From positions 1 to 64,000 of the forward strand of contig JANSXC010000016.1 in assembly GCA_024743115.1 (NCBI GenBank): DNA of 64,000 nucleotides, read 5' to 3'. The DNA comes from a bacterium (GTDB lineage: Bacteria; Planctomycetota; UBA1135; UBA2386). Below, one piece after another: positions 17,761 through 59,896 of this stretch (position 1 is the first letter of the stretch; each line of letters opens with the position of its first letter). The notes under the pieces are model-generated. The model saw only the letters and a list, made by a program, of their open reading frames with translations. It was not told where the DNA came from and ran no database searches. The position numbers and the translations under genes were made by a program.

Positions 17761-20070
17761 TCAGCGCAGTCCGATCGATGCGCGCATCGCGTGGCTCACC
17801 GCCGCGCCTGCGGGGTTGCCGTAGCTCGGGTCGAACGCGATGACCTGGTTGAAGTAGCGCCACCCGGCGTAGCTCGGCAACAACGGGATCGGGAACGAGA
17901 ACGTTGTCGAGCCGCCCGGGTGGAACACCGGGAATGGTTCGTCCGAGGAGATCCACGCGTGACAGCCCGGCAGGCCATAGGGGTCGAGCGGCGCGGGCAA
18001 CGGGATGCCGTTCCAGTTCAGCGTCGAGAACCCGTAGACCACGATGAGGAAGCCGGGCTGAGGCGGCAGGTTGTCGAGCGCGATCGTGAACGTGCTGCCG
18101 AGCCAGGGCCGGCTGAACGGTGCCGGAGCGACGGTCGGGGGTGACGCCGGGCAACCGCTGCCGAACGTCGAGGTGCTCGCGGTCGCGGCCGCGCGATAGG
18201 TAGTAGTTGCAGCGAAATCGGTGCCGCCGTCCGTCCCGCCGAGCAGGATGTTGGTGTCGGTCGCCGCATGATGTCCGAGGCGCGCCAGGAAGCGCGGCGC
18301 GGGACGGTTCGTGGTCGTCACGAGATCCCAGGTGCGCGCGCCGCCGCGCCACTCCCAGGTATCGTCCAGCGCCATCAGGGCCGGATCCAGGCCGCCCGTG
18401 ACGACGACGCGATCTCGTTCGGCGGCGTAGGTCATCGCGGCGTAGGAACGTGGCGACGGCGAATTCGCGGGTTGCTCGGGGGACCACGTCACACCATCGA
18501 ATGTCCAGGTGTCGGCGAGCGTCTGGAACCCGTCGTCGCCGCCGAACAGCACGACTTCCCCGCGGCGGCGATCGCAGGCCATCGCGTGGTACCGCCGGGC
18601 CGAGGGCGCGGGCCCCGAGACCGCCTGCCAGGTATTGCCGGTCCAGTGCCAGGTGTCGCCGAGGATCTGCTGCAGGAAGTCGATGCCGCCGAAGAGCAGG
18701 AGCCCGCCGCCCGGTGCCGGGACCAGATCGTGGAACTGGCGACCGATGGGAGATGCCGCCGGGTTCAGTTGGTTCCAGTTCGTGCCGTCCCATTCCCAGG
18801 TGCCGCCGAACGGGCTCGGGCCGGCTCCGCCGCCGAACAACACGACGCGCTGGCGTTGGTCGTCCCAGGCCATCGCGGCGCCCTGGCGCGGTGCCGGTCC
18901 AAACGTCGAGACGTCGAGCCAGCGGCTGCCGTCCCATTCCCAGGTGTCGGCCAGCACGGGGCCGGCCCGGGTCACTCCACCGAAGACCACCGTCCGCTCA
19001 CGCAAAGGGTCATAGGCGAGCGCGTGGCTCGAGCGGGCCCCTGGGGTGTCGCTCGTGCGCCGAGTCTGCCAGGTGAGCGCGGCCCCCGTGCCCGTCGCCG
19101 CGAGCAGATCGCCGCGCCGGCTGGCCGTCCCGCCCGCGGAGCCGCCGAGTGCGACGGCCTGGAACGCGCTCTCGTCGAATGCGGCGCCGGCGTTTGCACG
19201 CGCACCGAGGCCGCCCGCGCCCGTGCGGGCCATCCATGACGTGCCGTCGAACTGCCAGGTATCCGACCGCGCGCCGAGATCGTCGCGCCCGCCCGCCAGC
19301 AGCACGCCGGTGAGACTCGCGTCGCGCACGAAGATCGCGTCTTCACGCGCGGCCGGCCCGGTTGCTCCTGTTGCCAACCAGGAGCCGTTCGACCAGCGCA
19401 GCAGATCGTCTCGCAAGCCCTGCGCATCACGTCCGCCGAACAGCAGGGCGGTGCCGCCTGCCGGCGTCGCGAGTCCGGCGCCCGCGAGAGGCGTGACGAT
19501 GGCAGTCGTCAGTGACCAGTCCGTGCCATCATACGACCAGGTGTCGCCATGCAGGACTTGCCCGGTCTGGCCGCCGACGAGCAGCACGACGCCGGTGCCA
19601 GGGTCGAAGGTCATGGCGTGGCGGTGCCGTGGGCCCGGGCCATTCGCGGGGCCGGCGATCCAACTCGTGCCATCGAAGAGCCAGGTATCGCCGTGCGCGC
19701 CGTTCGGCCCGAGACCACCGAACAGCAGGTTCAACTGGAGTGGGTAGATGTAGGCCAGTGCGGCGTCAGTGCGCGGCGGCGGACCGCTTTGGATCGGCCG
19801 CAACACGAGGTTCGCGCCGTCCCACTCCCAGAGTTCCGCAAGGGGGCCGGCGCCGTCCTGGCCGCCGAAGAACAGCGTCCGCTGGCGGCTCGCGTCGTAG
19901 CAGGCGGCCGCGCCGTCCCGGGGTGTGCACAACGGAGCGCGCTGCCAGTCGGTCTGGGCCCGGAGCTGGCCGGTCACGAAGGCGCCGAGCAGACAGAGGC
20001 CGGCAGATACGCCTGCCGTGGGCTTGTGAGTGGGTGCTTGGATGTGCAGGACTCGGCGAAGGCGGCGCAT
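17761..20070 (-). CDS. Secreted 12-kelch-repeat protein with PLDxFGxxGC C-terminal module
   Basis: After a signal peptide (residues 1-39, ending LRAQ) come about twelve kelch repeats of ~50 residues, each with the pattern R-x(3)-A-x(2)-D ... VLFGG ... DTWxxDGxxW, filling residues ~45-630. Twelve blades would make two six-bladed propellers. The final ~135 residues are a separate module beginning FGSGCPASPPT and containing PLDPYGLPGC, which recurs in two other secreted proteins of this window. No galactose-oxidase copper ligands were recognised, so it is more likely a binding protein than an enzyme. Surface or periplasmic. The stop lies 7 bases after the convergent permease gene. Confidence 0.85.
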   Translation of the reverse strand: MRRLRRVLHIQAPTHKPTAGVSAGLCLLGAFVTGQLRAQTDWQRAPLCTPRDGAAACYDASRQRTLFFGGQDGAGPLAELWEWDGANLVLRPIQSGPPPRTDAALAYIYPLQLNLLFGGLGPNGAHGDTWLFDGTSWIAGPANGPGPRHRHAMTFDPGTGVVLLVGGQTGQVLHGDTWSYDGTDWSLTTAIVTPLAGAGLATPAGGTALLFGGRDAQGLRDDLLRWSNGSWLATGATGPAAREDAIFVRDASLTGVLLAGGRDDLGARSDTWQFDGTSWMARTGAGGLGARANAGAAFDESAFQAVALGGSAGGTASRRGDLLAATGTGAALTWQTRRTSDTPGARSSHALAYDPLRERTVVFGGVTRAGPVLADTWEWDGSRWLDVSTFGPAPRQGAAMAWDDQRQRVVLFGGGAGPSPFGGTWEWDGTNWNQLNPAASPIGRQFHDLVPAPGGGLLLFGGIDFLQQILGDTWHWTGNTWQAVSGPAPSARRYHAMACDRRRGEVVLFGGDDGFQTLADTWTFDGVTWSPEQPANSPSPRSYAAMTYAAERDRVVVTGGLDPALMALDDTWEWRGGARTWDLVTTTNRPAPRFLARLGHHAATDTNILLGGTDGGTDFAATTTYRAAATASTSTFGSGCPASPPTVAPAPFSRPWLGSTFTIALDNLPPQPGFLIVVYGFSTLNWNGIPLPAPLDPYGLPGCHAWISSDEPFPVFHPGGSTTFSFPIPLLPSYAGWRYFNQVIAFDPSYGNPAGAAVSHAMRASIGLR

Positions 20071-30494: not shown

Positions 30495-32687
30495 TCAGTG
30501 GCTGGTGATCAGGCGCTGGCCGTTGCTGAACGACACGCCCGTCATGTTGGCCGTCGGGTCGAGGCAGGCCCATTGCTGGAGGATCGGCAGGCCGGCGAGT
30601 TCGGGAACGTCCGGCAGGGCGAGGGCGAGGGTGCCGTTGCCGCCAGGATCCGTGAAGGTCAGGATCGAGCCGAACTCACGGTTGTTGAGGCCGACGCAGC
30701 CGGGGAGGCCAAAGCCATCCAGCGGCGTGGTTGCCTCGGTCAGACCGAGGAGCACGAAACAGGCCGAGACGCTGGGGCCGTCGCGGAGCAGCAGCTCCAG
30801 ATCGGGGTTCGGCAGCCAGGGCAGGCTGTTGGTGAAGCAGCGCGGGGTGCCGTTGGCGCCGGCGCAGCCAGCGCCGTACTCCTCGGCCAGGGCGTTACCA
30901 TGGGTTGCGCCGAGTCGGATACAGAGGGCGTTCTGGGAGGTCGAAATGGCGGTCGTGGCGTTGGCGTCGTTCGCGGTAGCGCGCCAGATGCCGCTCGCGC
31001 CCTGCGAATCCAGGGCGATGCCGTTGCCGTTGCGGTCGGTCACGCGGATGTCGACCAAGAGCGGGGCCCCAGCCGGGTCCCAGTAGAACGGCGTGTCGAG
31101 TTTCACGGTGATCGGAAACGCGCTGGCGTCCGACGTGTCGGTGATCAGGGGTGCCGAGAACTTGCCGTCGAAAACGCGCTGGCGACGGAGTCCGTGGTTG
31201 GAGTCGAAGTTCACCGCGAGCGGACCGTTCGAGATCGCGGCCTCCGAGAGGTCGATGGTGACGGTCCAGGTCGCCGGGCCGACCGGGCCGGTGGGCGAGT
31301 TTGGCCGGAACGCGAGGCTATCGATCCAGATCGGCGCCGTCGAAGGGGCGTGCAGTCCGGTGTAGAGGAACATGCTGCGCCCGCTGGCCTGGTTGAGCGG
31401 CGTGGCCAGCGACCCGTTGCCGCGCACCGAGTCGAGGTTGGCGGGCAGGGTGGGGATCGGCTCTCCCACCACGCCGAGCACGGCGACGTTGCTCGGGGTC
31501 AACGTGCCCTCGGACCCGAACGCGTCCGTGTTGTTGAGGATGCGCCGCACGGGGTTGCTCGCGACTGGCACGGCATCGATCTGCGCGATTGCGGATACGT
31601 CGTGACTGAGCACCTGCACCTCGACGACGAGGTGGCCCTCGTCCGGGTTGTATTCGAACGGCGTCTGGAGTTCGCAGACGCGGGTGTAGCGGCGTGGGCC
31701 TGGGCCCGATGAGGTGTTGCTGAACGCCAGCGGGCCCTCATAAACGAGCGTCTTGTCGGCGCCGTGGTTCTGGTTGAATCGGATGACCGCGTTCTGGGGC
31801 GACGAGGCCGTCGTCGACATCGTGATGCGGCAATCGAAGGTCGCCGCGGCGGATGAGGTGAACTCGTTCGAGCGCCAGCTCAACGCGGTGATCCGCGTGC
31901 GGCCGGCGAAGTCCATGGCGTTCCGGTTGTAGATGTCCATCACGCGGTACTCCGCGGTGGTCTGACCCCACGGGTAACCGGTGTCCGAAGCGCCTTCGGT
32001 CGCTTCGACGGTCTTTGGCAGAGTGTCCGTGTCGAGCAGGAACTGGATCGCGAGGGCTTCGCTGGTGCGCGAGCTGGCGGCAGCAAGGTTCCAGTTGGGC
32101 GAGTAGAGGGTCGCGAGCCCACTGTCCGAGACGGCGTCCCAGTTCAGGTTGGTCGGTGTGCCAGCACCCCATGTGCGGATGTCGAGGACGAAGGGGCCAC
32201 ACTTCGGATCCCACTCGAACGGCACGTCGAACGGAATCGTCACCGTGAACGGGCTCACGGATCCCGAAGTTGTCTGGGCTGGCACGTTGAACGCAGCGTC
32301 GTAGACGCGGGTCTTGTCGCCGCCGTGCTGGACGGCAAGGTTCAGGCCGTTGCCGTTCGGGTTCCTGGCCCCCGTGGAGACGTCGACGCGAAGGTTGGGG
32401 AAGTTGCCGGCGGTTACCTGGGTCGAGCCGCCGTTGCGGCGGAATCGCACTCCGAGAATCCGCATCGTCTGATCCGAGGGCGCGTGCTCGGCACCGTACA
32501 GGCACATCGTCCGGGATTCCTGCTGGCCCCAGGGGACCTGCATCACCGAGTTGCCCTCGGCGCCAGCCGCGGCGGCTGGCACGACGGCTCGGACCTGTAG
32601 CGGGGCCTGTGCCGTAACGGTCGGGAGCAAACCCATCAGTATGCTCGAGGCGGCGGCGAGGGCGGGAAGGTTGCGGAGCTGAATCAT
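30495..32687 (-). CDS. Secreted protein with three beta-sandwich repeats and PLDxFGxxGC C-terminal module
   Basis: Signal peptide (residues 1-27, ending PTVTAQ). Three repeats of ~190 residues follow, each with a start like EGNSVMQVPWGQQ or RGNGSLATPLNQAS, a central NHGxxxxxVYxG segment (QHGGDKTRVYD, NHGADKTLVYEG, NHGLRRQRVFDG) and a closing TPFYWDPxxxPLLVDIR strand. The last ~125 residues are the recurrent module with YGAGCAGANGTP and PLDGFGLPGC. It ends with SFSNGQRLI, shared with the protein at 2061-3176. No enzyme motif. Likely a surface or matrix protein. 730 residues. Confidence 0.8.
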   Translation of the reverse strand: MIQLRNLPALAAASSILMGLLPTVTAQAPLQVRAVVPAAAAGAEGNSVMQVPWGQQESRTMCLYGAEHAPSDQTMRILGVRFRRNGGSTQVTAGNFPNLRVDVSTGARNPNGNGLNLAVQHGGDKTRVYDAAFNVPAQTTSGSVSPFTVTIPFDVPFEWDPKCGPFVLDIRTWGAGTPTNLNWDAVSDSGLATLYSPNWNLAAASSRTSEALAIQFLLDTDTLPKTVEATEGASDTGYPWGQTTAEYRVMDIYNRNAMDFAGRTRITALSWRSNEFTSSAAATFDCRITMSTTASSPQNAVIRFNQNHGADKTLVYEGPLAFSNTSSGPGPRRYTRVCELQTPFEYNPDEGHLVVEVQVLSHDVSAIAQIDAVPVASNPVRRILNNTDAFGSEGTLTPSNVAVLGVVGEPIPTLPANLDSVRGNGSLATPLNQASGRSMFLYTGLHAPSTAPIWIDSLAFRPNSPTGPVGPATWTVTIDLSEAAISNGPLAVNFDSNHGLRRQRVFDGKFSAPLITDTSDASAFPITVKLDTPFYWDPAGAPLLVDIRVTDRNGNGIALDSQGASGIWRATANDANATTAISTSQNALCIRLGATHGNALAEEYGAGCAGANGTPRCFTNSLPWLPNPDLELLLRDGPSVSACFVLLGLTEATTPLDGFGLPGCVGLNNREFGSILTFTDPGGNGTLALALPDVPELAGLPILQQWACLDPTANMTGVSFSNGQRLITSH

Positions 32688-50475: not shown

Positions 50476-53400
50476 CTACGGTTCGAGTCGCAGGCGGAGA
50501 CTCTGCGTCCCGGTCTCCGGGACGTCGATCTCGGCCCGAGCCGACGCGTTCCACAGGGACCGGGCCGTGACGACGTAGCGCCCTGGCAGCAAGCCGGTTG
50601 CCAGCTCGAACAATCCCGGCGATTTCGCGGCACCGACGTTGTCGGCGAGGACGAGTCGGCCGTTGCTGTCGTGCACCTGCACGCGCAGCGGCCCGTCGAT
50701 CACGAACGGGTTCTCGACCGGAGCGAACTCGAACGCAAAGGTCACGGCCGTCGCCGGCTCGAGTTCGACCGCGAGCCACTGCCGGCCGGGTTCGAACCGA
50801 ACGTCTCGTTCGACCGGGGCGATGCCCGGGCCGTGCACGAGCACGCGGCCGTTGCCGGGCGGCAGTGGTGGTAGCATCGCCTGGCCGGCGTAGTCGGTTC
50901 GCGCCGAGACGAACTTGTCGCCGATCGCGAGCCGCCCGACGACCCGCAGCCCCGCGACCGTGTCACCGCTCGGGTGATCGGCATGGACCGTGAGCTGCGT
51001 CGGATACTCGAGCTGAACCGCGCCGAGGTCGATGTCGGAACCGTCGGCCGGCATCGTGACCGGTATGGTCAGCGTGCCGGCACCGGAGGTGACCATCGCC
51101 AGGTAGTAGTCGCCAGGCGCCAGCATCCCGAAGTCGCATTCGCCGCCCGCTGCCGTCCGTTGGGTCATCGGGTAGCAGAACTCGCGGTGGCGCAGTTCGA
51201 TCGTGGTGCGCGTGGCCGGTGTGCCGTCCGGGGCGAGAACGCGCAAACGCAGTCGTCCGCTCGGCGGCCGCGCGGTCTGGACGACGAAGTCGTGGCGTTC
51301 TTCATCGACGGAGGCGAACTGCGTCGCGACCGGGAATCGGTCGAGCCGATCGGACGCCGCACCCGGTGGGAATGCCCCGAGGCAGTAGCGCGTGTCCGCG
51401 GCGACGCCCGCGATGACGAAGGTGCCCTCCGGCCCGGTCTTCGCCGAGCGGCCGCGTCCGAGGCGGTGGAAGGTCACGCCGTCGGTCGGGATCGCCACGA
51501 CGTGCCAGCCCGCGAGCGGTGTGCCGGATGCGCTGCGTAGCTGGCCGGAGAGTTCGTGGGGGCGATGACCGGTAAGGCGCACTTCGTGATCGCCAGCGAG
51601 TTGAACGTCGACATCGACCCCCGCGACGATGTAGCGGTTGAGGAAGGGGTGCAGGCTCTCCGAGGCATCATGGCCACCGATCCAGATCTTGATCGGCCCG
51701 ACGGGCAGGCGTTCGAACAAGAACGTGCCTGTCGCGTCCGTTCGCACCATGCGGGCGAGCAGTGGCCCGGCCGGGTCGTTGCTCCGCGGTTGGGTCAGGG
51801 TCGCCGCGACGGGTCGGCCAGCCAATGGGCGACCGGCCTCGTCGACGGCGATGCCGCGTACCGTGCCGCCGGCCGTGAGGACGACGACGGCGTGGTCGGC
51901 GTCCTGCGGCAGAGCGGTCCGACTCGGCGCGTAACCAGGCGCGCTCGCGACGATGGTCGTGGACCGCGCCCCGGGATCGGCGAAGCGCGCCTTGCCATCG
52001 GTGTCAGCGATCGCGTGCTGGGGCAGAACCATGTCGGTTGCCTGGCTGCGCGGCGCGAGCGCCACGTAGGCGGCGGGGATCGGATCGCCGGCCGCGTTCG
52101 TGACGTGCACTGCGACGGTTCGCGTAGCGGCCTCGAGCTCGAGCCGGACGGAACCACCGGCTTCGATGCGCATGCTCGTCGAGCGTCCGTGGTCGGGGTG
52201 GCGGGCAAACACGCGCGCTCGGTCGATCAGGGAGGTCGCACGAAACCGTCCCAGAGCATCACTGTGGGCGACGCCCGCGCCGAGGTCGCCGCGTCCCGAG
52301 GTCTCCGATACGACGATCTCCGCGTCGGCAACCGGCCGGCCGCGATGATCGGTGACGCGGCCGTCGAACTCCACGCTCGGCGGCAGTTCGAGGCGGGCCT
52401 GGTTGTCCCCGGGGAGTAGATCGACGCGCAGGCGCGGCAGCGCCCCGGGCAGCGCGACCTGCCACGGGCCGGGCCGCAGGTCGACGAGATCGGCCGCGCC
52501 TTCGCCATCAGTGAGGAACTGGCGGGTCGACGGATCGAACCAGCGTTCGGGCAACGCCCGACCGTCGAGCCGCACGAGTGCGAGCCCGACCGCGGCGCGC
52601 GGCCGGCCATCGAGACCGACGACCTGGAGGCGGAGGCGACTGCGGTCCCGGGCCGTAGATCGTTCGGATGACGTCAGGTCAGCGCCGGATTTCGACGATC
52701 CGCGTGCCGCGGGCGCGTTGGCCACGCGGCTGGTAACGGACGCCGTTGCAGCGCGGGCGATGGCGCCCGGGTCCGTGTCGCCCGTTCCCGCCTGGGTCAC
52801 GACGAGGACCAACGCGATCAGCCCCATCGCGGCCAGTCCGAACCCGACCCCGAGTGCGAGCTGCGGCAGCGCTGTCGAGGTCTCCGCGGCAACGGGCTCG
52901 CGCGCGACCGACGTGAGTGGTTCGACGGGTTCGACGAAGCGCGCCGCCTCCGCGGCGTGCGTCGCGATCTGCGCTGGGTTGAGCTTCACGAGCAAGGCGG
53001 TTGCGAGCCCGAGCGGCAGTGCGCCACGCAGTCGCTCGATGGCGCGGGCCATCTGCTTGCGGACGGTTGCGCGCGGGCGCGCCAGGCGTTCGGAGATCTC
53101 GCGGCTGTCGAGACCCTCCCGCAAGTACAGCGTGAGGACGGAACGATACGGCTCGGGCAGTTCCTTGATGCCGTGATCGAGCGCCTGTCGGACCTCGGCG
53201 CGCAGGGCCGCGCTCACGGGTTCGGGGGCCGGACGCGCGTCGTTGGCTGGCAACGTCGGTAGTTCGGATCGTGCGTCGACACGACTCCTTCGCCGGCGGT
53301 CGGCGCGCCGCAGCATGCGCGCGTGGTTGGTGAGGATGCCGCACAGCCAGCTCATGACCCGGCCGTCGGTCGCGAACGTGTCCGCCCGCGAGATCGCGCT

Positions 53401-53568
53401 GAGGAACGTTGCCTGGACGAGATCCTCGGCATCGCTCGGACGTTCCGCGAGGAAGACAGCGAGGCGCAGCAGTTCCTCGACGTGACGTCGAAAGAGCATG
53501 CCGAGGGCATCGCAGTCGTGGTGCCGGCGGTACGCGAGGAACAGATCCTCATCACTGCGGCGTTGCAT
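50476..53568 (-). CDS. ECF sigma factor fused through a membrane helix to carboxypeptidase-regulatory-like ectodomain
   Basis: Residues ~14-90 are sigma region 2 (AEDLVQATFLSAISRA) and ~128-185 region 4 (DSREISERLARPRATVRKQMARAIERLRG). A single membrane helix at 237-258 (QLALGVGFGLAAMGLIALVLVV) is followed by ~770 residues with about eight carboxypeptidase-regulatory-like units (for example FDGRVTDHRGRPVADAEIVV, VRGIAVDEAGRPLAGRPVAA, LSGQLRSASGTPLAGWHVVA). So a DNA-binding sigma factor is tethered to the membrane with its sensor outside. Release would need proteolysis or conformational signalling. ATG 53568 removes a weak upstream extension from 53601. 1030 residues. Confidence 0.85.
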   Translation of the reverse strand: MQRRSDEDLFLAYRRHHDCDALGMLFRRHVEELLRLAVFLAERPSDAEDLVQATFLSAISRADTFATDGRVMSWLCGILTNHARMLRRADRRRRSRVDARSELPTLPANDARPAPEPVSAALRAEVRQALDHGIKELPEPYRSVLTLYLREGLDSREISERLARPRATVRKQMARAIERLRGALPLGLATALLVKLNPAQIATHAAEAARFVEPVEPLTSVAREPVAAETSTALPQLALGVGFGLAAMGLIALVLVVTQAGTGDTDPGAIARAATASVTSRVANAPAARGSSKSGADLTSSERSTARDRSRLRLQVVGLDGRPRAAVGLALVRLDGRALPERWFDPSTRQFLTDGEGAADLVDLRPGPWQVALPGALPRLRVDLLPGDNQARLELPPSVEFDGRVTDHRGRPVADAEIVVSETSGRGDLGAGVAHSDALGRFRATSLIDRARVFARHPDHGRSTSMRIEAGGSVRLELEAATRTVAVHVTNAAGDPIPAAYVALAPRSQATDMVLPQHAIADTDGKARFADPGARSTTIVASAPGYAPSRTALPQDADHAVVVLTAGGTVRGIAVDEAGRPLAGRPVAATLTQPRSNDPAGPLLARMVRTDATGTFLFERLPVGPIKIWIGGHDASESLHPFLNRYIVAGVDVDVQLAGDHEVRLTGHRPHELSGQLRSASGTPLAGWHVVAIPTDGVTFHRLGRGRSAKTGPEGTFVIAGVAADTRYCLGAFPPGAASDRLDRFPVATQFASVDEERHDFVVQTARPPSGRLRLRVLAPDGTPATRTTIELRHREFCYPMTQRTAAGGECDFGMLAPGDYYLAMVTSGAGTLTIPVTMPADGSDIDLGAVQLEYPTQLTVHADHPSGDTVAGLRVVGRLAIGDKFVSARTDYAGQAMLPPLPPGNGRVLVHGPGIAPVERDVRFEPGRQWLAVELEPATAVTFAFEFAPVENPFVIDGPLRVQVHDSNGRLVLADNVGAAKSPGLFELATGLLPGRYVVTARSLWNASARAEIDVPETGTQSLRLRLEP

Positions 53569-53826
53569 GGAGCTCTCGAAGCTAGAGCGTGCCGCGATCA
53601 TCGCAACCCCCGATTCGCAGTGCTCCTCGCTGCCGCGGAGCCCGTCTGGTCAGCGCCGCGACTTTTCGAACTTCTCTGTCACAGCTCCGCGTCGAGCGGC
53701 ATAGCGGCTGGCGGCAGCTCCGAACCGGGAGCTGCGCTCGACCATCGTGACGGCGGATCACCCGTCGGTCGTCCGTTGTCATGGTGGACTCCGTCTCTCC
53801 TCACTCGGCTCACGCCAAGGACTCCC

Positions 53827-55386
53827 ATGCCAACGCCTCTGCGCCTCGGCGGAGCGGTCGCCCTGACCGCTGCCGTCGCTCTCGCCCAACCGGGCAACGA
53901 GATCATCTTCGTCGGAACCTCGACCTCCGGCAGCACCGACGCGCACCACTTCGTCGAATCAGGAACTGGCAACTCGACCGGCGCCAATTCGTCGTTCACG
54001 GACAACGTCACGGGCGCGGTCTGGGCCGATTCAGGGCGCAACCTCTACGTTGGTCAGGGCCTGCAGAACCGGGTCGCGCGCGGTAGCTGGGATGGCACTG
54101 GCGTGACCTGGTCAACTCTCTGGAGTGCGCCGGGTGCCTGCTATGGCGTCGAACACGACCCGATTCGACGGCGACTCTGGACGCTGACCGGGTCGTCGGG
54201 TGCCAACCGGGAACTCCATTGCATCGACGCCGATCCGTCGAGCGCGAACTACGGCACGGTGATCGATCAGACCAACGTGCTCGGCACGACCTCGCGTGAG
54301 CGTTGGTCGATCTCGCCGCTCGGCAACCTCGCTGCCGTGCCAGCCGCGTTCATCGGCAGCGGATTGTTCGAAATCGTCGATCTCGAACCGACGAGCCCGA
54401 ACTACCTGCAGGTCGTCGTGTCGACGTTCGTGCCGGGGCTGAGCGGGCTCCTCATCGCGAGTGATCTCGCGATCTCCTTCGACGAGCAATACGCGTATCT
54501 GCTCTACACCGGCCTGTCCGGTAGCGTGGTCGTGGGTGGGCTCGCCGTCCTGCACATCCCGACCGTCACGTGGCTCGACTTCGATGCCGGCCTGCCCGGC
54601 CCGCAGCCGCTCGCGTTCACGAACCCGGTGCCGAACCGTATGGACCTGTCGTTCGACAGTTCGTTCGCTGTCGTGTCCGGCCAAGGCGGGGCGGGGTGGC
54701 TGGTTCGCGTCGACTTCGACTACCAGAACCCGGCCAATACGACGACGACCGAGTTCCTCGCCGGCCAGGGTGTGCTGCCGAACTGCAACGCCGTGTCGCT
54801 GTCGCCCGACGATCAGCGCATCGCGGTGTCCGCGACGCCGGTCAACCTGAGTTCGCCGAGCGCGCTCGTGGTCGTGGACGCGAACACCGGGACGTTGCTG
54901 CAGAACGTGACGCTCAACCCGGCCTGGAACGTCTACACGACCGCCTGGCAGGACCGCTCACCGATCGCGACCTACGAGTCCTTCGGCAGTGGCTGCGTCG
55001 GCTCGCTGGGCATCCCCGAACTCGCCGCACAACCGGGCTCGCGACCCGCGCTGGGTTCGACGTTCCAGGCCACGGTCAGCAACCTCCCGAGCAACGTCGC
55101 GATCATGACGACCGGCTTCAGCAACACCTGGAACTCGTCGACCGCGACGCCGCTGCCATTGCCGCTCGACACGTTCGGTATGGCCGGTTGCACCCAGCTC
55201 GCCGACCCGGTCGCAGTCCAGTTCCTGTTCGGCGCCGGCGGCAATGCGAGCTGGAGCTGGACCCTGCCCACGTCGGAAGTCTGGTTCGGCGCGCCGTTCT
55301 ACCAGCAAGCCTTCGTGCTCGATTCCGCCGCCAACCAGCTCGGCCTGACCGCGACCAACGGCGGCGCCGGCGTCCTGGGCTACTGA
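53827..55386 (+). CDS. Secreted propeller-like protein with PLDxFGxxGC C-terminal module
   Basis: Signal peptide (residues 1-21, ending VALAQ), then ~360 residues with WD/YVTN-like beta-propeller features (LYVGQGLQNRV, LSPDDQRIAVSATPV, VVVDANTGTLLQN). The last ~135 residues are the shared module: FGSGCVGSLGIPEL at the start, PLPLDTFGMAGC inside, and FYQQAFVLD near the end. No enzyme site. Divergent from the giant sigma gene, with a 258-base gap. Likely a surface or periplasmic binding protein. 519 residues. Confidence 0.78.
   Translation: MPTPLRLGGAVALTAAVALAQPGNEIIFVGTSTSGSTDAHHFVESGTGNSTGANSSFTDNVTGAVWADSGRNLYVGQGLQNRVARGSWDGTGVTWSTLWSAPGACYGVEHDPIRRRLWTLTGSSGANRELHCIDADPSSANYGTVIDQTNVLGTTSRERWSISPLGNLAAVPAAFIGSGLFEIVDLEPTSPNYLQVVVSTFVPGLSGLLIASDLAISFDEQYAYLLYTGLSGSVVVGGLAVLHIPTVTWLDFDAGLPGPQPLAFTNPVPNRMDLSFDSSFAVVSGQGGAGWLVRVDFDYQNPANTTTTEFLAGQGVLPNCNAVSLSPDDQRIAVSATPVNLSSPSALVVVDANTGTLLQNVTLNPAWNVYTTAWQDRSPIATYESFGSGCVGSLGIPELAAQPGSRPALGSTFQATVSNLPSNVAIMTTGFSNTWNSSTATPLPLPLDTFGMAGCTQLADPVAVQFLFGAGGNASWSWTLPTSEVWFGAPFYQQAFVLDSAANQLGLTATNGGAGVLGY

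Positions 55387-56275: not shown

Positions 56276-59896
<3,621 letters not shown>

Follow-up and report, generated by a model that had tools for sequence, protein, structure and literature searches.

A planctomycete ECF sigma factor gene that encodes its own membrane helix and beta-sandwich ectodomain, and a divergent gene as its candidate target

Extracytoplasmic function (ECF) sigma factors fused to a membrane anchor are already known, namely IutY/ECF243, ECF48, ECF52 and ECF53 (PMC8999054). The actinobacterial groups ECF52 (SCO4117), ECF48 and ECF53 join an ECF sigma factor to membrane helices (one or two) and an extracytoplasmic portion within one chain, for which proteolytic activation has been proposed; IutY of Pseudomonas putida (ECF243), a sigma factor fused to a membrane-bound anti-sigma factor, is released from the chain by Prc and RseP (PMC8999054). 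ECF57 and other WD40-extended ECFs of planctomycetes are strongly expanded and bear long C-terminal extensions, and extended planctomycete ECFs have been recovered in detergent-soluble fractions (PMC8567305). ECF41 factors control one adjacent target gene from a proven promoter, TGTCACA-N16-CGTC (PMC3426412). The gene described here lies on the minus strand of a 64,000-nucleotide stretch (the window) of contig JANSXC010000016.1 from a planctomycete of the lineage UBA1135; UBA2386. It encodes a variant of the fused kind, in which the linker carries no recognisable anti-sigma domain.

The frame at 50476-53601 (minus strand) is open over 1041 codons, with no internal stop. Translation likely starts at the ATG at 53568, because the orthologous proteins begin MxxRSDE; from this codon the gene encodes 1030 amino acids. 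The gene, its parts and the adjoining features are as follows:

50476..53568, minus strand: tethered ECF sigma factor gene (open frame, Pfam, ortholog-supported start)
53293..53496, minus strand: sigma-70 region 2 with the core-binding motif AEDLVQATF (Pfam PF04542, Sigma70_r2, E 1.4e-10)
53029..53187, minus strand: sigma-70 region 4 (Pfam PF08281, Sigma70_r4_2, E 3.7e-10)
52936..53016, minus strand: juxtamembrane linker element LPxGLATxL...NAADAARF (48-70% identical in orthologs; predicted short helices; no Cys)
52798..52854, minus strand: single transmembrane helix (residues 250-268 in the 1041-residue numbering; mean hydropathy 2.57)
52648..52791, minus strand: low-complexity Ala/Thr/Ser stalk (AlphaFold2 confidence, pLDDT, below 50; 11-33% identity between orthologs)
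50479..52647, minus strand: ectodomain of about eight transthyretin/CnaB-like beta-sandwiches, CarboxypepD_reg (Pfam PF13620, AlphaFold2, Foldseek)
53677..53704, plus strand: promoter-like TGTCAC-N16-GCATAG, directed at the divergent gene (intergenic alignment)
53827..55386, plus strand: divergent secreted protein of 519 amino acids whose start resembles a signal peptide (no Pfam family); proposed as the cis target

Pfam places Sigma70_r2 at residues 36-103 and Sigma70_r4_2 at residues 139-191 (1041-residue numbering), so that the protein has regions 2 and 4 only, as is general for ECF sigma factors, and the AEDLVQATF motif is invariant among orthologs. The general model TIGR02937 (sigma70-ECF) scores 81.4 bits against a cut-off of 42.9; the Planctomycetaceae-specific subfamily TIGR02984 (63.2 bits) and Sig-70_gvs1 TIGR02989 (68.0 bits) stay under their curated cut-offs of 183.75 and 124.55, respectively. 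C-terminal to the hydrophobic helix, six stretches match CarboxypepD_reg (E 2e-42). An AlphaFold2 model built from a 34-row alignment shows helices in the sigma part and an all-beta ectodomain at residues 308-1028 of the 1030-residue form, mostly with pLDDT above 90; the linker, the membrane helix and the stalk are of low confidence. Foldseek matches of the modelled ectodomain comprise CnaB-type pilins, SdrD B domains and alpha2-macroglobulins, and point to multi-domain stalks rather than to an enzyme. A sequence-only reading of this stretch had described a single frame with sigma regions 2 and 4, one membrane helix and about eight beta-sandwiches, and the open frame, Pfam, hydropathy and AlphaFold2 bear this out. 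A frameshift or missed stop between the sigma and membrane parts is rejected, as the frame is clean and orthologous loci keep the same layout.

The comparison with described groups shows both shared and distinct features. Like IutY, the protein has a sigma factor and a membrane anchor in a single chain; unlike IutY, it has no Pfam match to any anti-sigma domain. ECF48, ECF52 and ECF53 have a zinc-finger anti-sigma domain between region 4 and the membrane helix, and a Pro-rich or carbohydrate-binding part beyond it, whereas here the linker has no zf-HC2 match by Pfam and no Cys, zf-HC2 is not among the families listed for 40 paralogs in the same genome, and the ectodomain consists of PF13620 repeats. 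ECF57 is similar in its host phylum, expansion and long C-terminal extension, but that extension is made of WD40 repeats, for which Pfam gave no match here. ECF41 factors are soluble, have a SnoaL extension (no SnoaL match by Pfam here) and differ in their -10 block and type of target. The earlier suggestion that sensor, anchor and sigma factor are merged in one chain is thus supported; its view of the combination as standing apart is right only in part, since fused membrane-anchored ECFs have been described (PMC8999054) and about 40 such genes occur in this genome. In the 2021 ECF classification, this architecture may already be a numbered group.

Eight orthologous loci (L090-L097) form a supported clade with the window gene (100/99); L091 and L094 come from one metagenome-assembled genome (MAG), and the eight loci therefore represent seven assemblies. 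The full layout is kept in L090, L091, L093 and L096, and as far as the contig end in L092, L094, L095 and L097; in one same-genus genome, the ectodomain and the sigma part lie on separate contigs. Identity to the window gene is 64-83% in the sigma part and 38-41% in the ectodomain, while the membrane helix is conserved in position and drifts in sequence (10-48% identity between orthologs). Nonsynonymous and synonymous divergence of the sigma part from L095 (dN 0.134, dS 0.80) gives a dN/dS of about 0.17, compared with 0.33 for the linker from the same pair and, with L021 as the reference, 0.46 for the ectodomain. By these alignments, the sigma part evolves more slowly than the rest of the protein and is strongly constrained by purifying selection.

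The sigma gene is convergent with thrS on one side and divergent from the secreted-protein gene on the other, with no anti-sigma gene adjoining it. A homolog of the divergent gene (41-68% identity) adjoins the sigma gene in all eight orthologous loci, as two tandem copies in L093 and L096. The 519-residue product has no Pfam match. Its residues 384-519 form a C-terminal domain of about 130 amino acids that is also encoded at 17770-18171 and 30519-30893 (minus strand) of the window and near several sigma paralogs, and which is possibly a sorting domain. Alignment of the intergenic regions reveals two short blocks, TGTCAC and GCATAG, as the sole conserved sequence. GTCAC-N16-GCA is present in 9/9 regions with constant spacing and variable spacer bases; the variants are GCAGAT in L091 and L093, GCATAT in L097, and an initial C for T in L091 and L096. 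TGTCAC-N16-GCATA occurs once in the genome, and the full TGTCAC-N16-GCATAG site is found in five of 61 genomes of the order, this one included. The -35-like block and the spacing resemble those of the ECF41 promoter, which likewise lies beside a single adjacent target gene (PMC3426412). The element is likely the target promoter of the divergent gene, and would be recognised by this sigma factor. For other paralog groups, no shared divergent partner or promoter was recognised among the seven examined.

The genome (6.95 Mb) contains 73 matches, including 40 long frames with sigma domains, a count based on hydropathy and open reading frames in a draft genome of 90% completeness. By Pfam, every one of these 40 has region 4, while 39 have region 2 and 37 have CarboxypepD_reg. 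All 40 relatives searched within the family and order have matches, as do 36 of 119 genomes in a sample of the phylum (E 1e-15), where several are long frames in other families and others merely short sigma factors. A search with a 5-row alignment named planctomycete MAGs and Poly30 as relatives. Members diverge to about 20-28% identity. The G000 paralogs L062 and L065-L081 form a second sigma subfamily, in which the linker starts LRxRLDxxxGxRxAW and the overall layout is unchanged. Splits into a sigma gene and a separate anchor gene were considered and rejected, the short sigma frames examined being other ECFs or contig-end truncations.

These observations are best accommodated, with a probability of about 0.5, by a self-tethered ECF sigma factor that is freed by cleavage and transcribes chiefly the divergent secreted-protein gene. 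The sigma domain would lie in the cytoplasm (N-in), inactive for as long as its own transmembrane helix keeps it at the membrane; the ectodomain would project outward as a sensor or stalk. An outside event would lead to cleavage, with a second cut made most likely by the RseP-type M50 protease of the genome, and the freed sigma domain would transcribe chiefly the divergent gene from TGTCAC-N16-GCATAG. Release by proteolysis, as in IutY, is the simplest model by analogy. Candidate proteases of the kinds that the sequence-only reading had proposed to look for are present, as an M50 protease at C20:137951-139705 and four rhomboid matches.

Several points weigh against this reading. Proteases of the M50 and rhomboid kinds occur almost everywhere, so that their presence lends it little weight, and neither a cleavage site nor a ligand or partner protease was identified. 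The positive-inside signal is poor in this gene, with a family average of 1.4 versus 1.1 Lys/Arg across the two sides of the helix. The -10-like block GCATAG is unlike the CGTC of ECF41, and the conserved element may belong to another regulator.

Unlikely, yet the strongest of the alternatives, is that the tethered sigma factor acts directly from the membrane without cleavage, like ToxR or CadC, a change in the ectodomain allowing the short linker to free the sigma domain. The linker measures about 50 residues in this gene, and the family's median gap from region 4 to the helix is 46 residues, which is short for a usual anti-sigma domain; L142 has a Ser/Gly-rich linker of more than 100 residues in this position. 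The family form of the linker element, LPxGL...GLAAVRxxVL, includes a helix motif found in 74 of 126 linkers versus 8 in shuffles, and AlphaFold2 places the linker helices of this protein at 186-194 and 198-211. At a guess, the conserved helix is inhibitory or faces RNA polymerase. A short linker with a possibly inhibitory helix, the lack of genetically linked cleavage machinery and the position of the sole candidate target next to the gene would all suit direct action. However, IutY, the one fused ECF studied experimentally, is released by proteolysis (PMC8999054), and a permanent tether would be hard to square with a holoenzyme that leaves the promoter.

A still less probable account, compatible with either release mechanism and concerning the paralogs, is that family genes have two products, an internal start also giving an anchored ectodomain without the sigma part, which would be a competitor for the signal or fix the sensor-to-sigma ratio. 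Many paralogs have a Met just before the membrane helix, often with Lys-Lys after it and Gly-Gly before it, and the typical site reads GGAGG, seven bases, ATG, AAG, AAG (GGAGG-N7-ATG/GTG). In a set selected as relatives of the window gene, whose members are not fully independent, the juxtamembrane Gly-Gly is coded GGA-GGx in 61% of 59 cases versus 9% of 724 at other places in these genes (Fisher p 2e-20); the codon four after the juxtamembrane GGA is ATG in 32, GTG in 16 and GTC in 2, GTG being typical where Val replaces the Met. Of 126 members, 33 have GGAGG with an in-frame start at Shine-Dalgarno (SD) spacing, whereas 5.3 +/- 2.0 (maximum 10, 300 runs) do when synonymous codons are shuffled within each gene and the proteins left unchanged; with weaker motifs included, the figures are 49 members and 11.3 +/- 3.0. 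Among loci from other planctomycete families, unused in discovering the pattern, L179, L180, L181 and L186 have the site and L183 does not, while L182 repeats L114. The 16S end reads CCTCCT in eight relatives (that of this genome is unassembled). At the weaker threshold the site is found in 13 of 39 paralogs of this genome, and its distribution on the tree is patchy, without a single gain; examples are L003, L012, L029, L034, L111 and L118, as well as the Poly30 locus L139.

Because synonymous codons are selected for the internal site, the sigma-less ectodomain is probably also translated in many paralogs, though not from the window gene. SD motifs precede just 24 of 109 candidate sigma starts, whose assignment is uncertain, and the internal product may for this reason outnumber the full chain. 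This remains predicted initiation: SD-like pausing could account for GGAGG, though not for start codons at a fixed spacing, and is the less likely cause. Programmed frameshifting at the Lys-Lys codons was dropped, as the AAG-AAG that follows ATG is not a slippery sequence and the same frame encodes the helix. The two-product account cannot explain the window gene, since neither it nor its orthologs have a convincing internal site (weak calls in L091 and L094 at a looser threshold look like chance).

That the sigma part has ceased to work as a sigma factor and is merely the cytoplasmic domain of a surface stalk protein is very improbable: no target or activity has been shown for any member and divergence is deep, but the purifying selection and invariant core-binding motifs described above contradict it.

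Elsewhere in the window, 56276-59896 (plus strand) encodes a fused protein of the 2-oxoglutarate dehydrogenase E2-E1 type (1206 amino acids), which adjoins infC and by eye resembles mycobacterial Kgd.

A wider view, which we consider as apt to be right as wrong, is that self-tethered, two-product sigma genes form a phylum-wide family, from which the ortholog group of the window gene departed by losing the second start and specialising on a single cis target. With its conserved gene pair and unique promoter-like site, this circuit lends itself to direct testing in vitro. If the reading is true, some 40 single-chain receptor-sigma factors would give this planctomycete a large set of one-protein circuits from surface to gene, without a separate anti-sigma factor. 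The internal starts, visible only in synonymous codons, would be a second layer that annotation pipelines miss, and the sigma-less ectodomain would act as a built-in decoy or ratio control.
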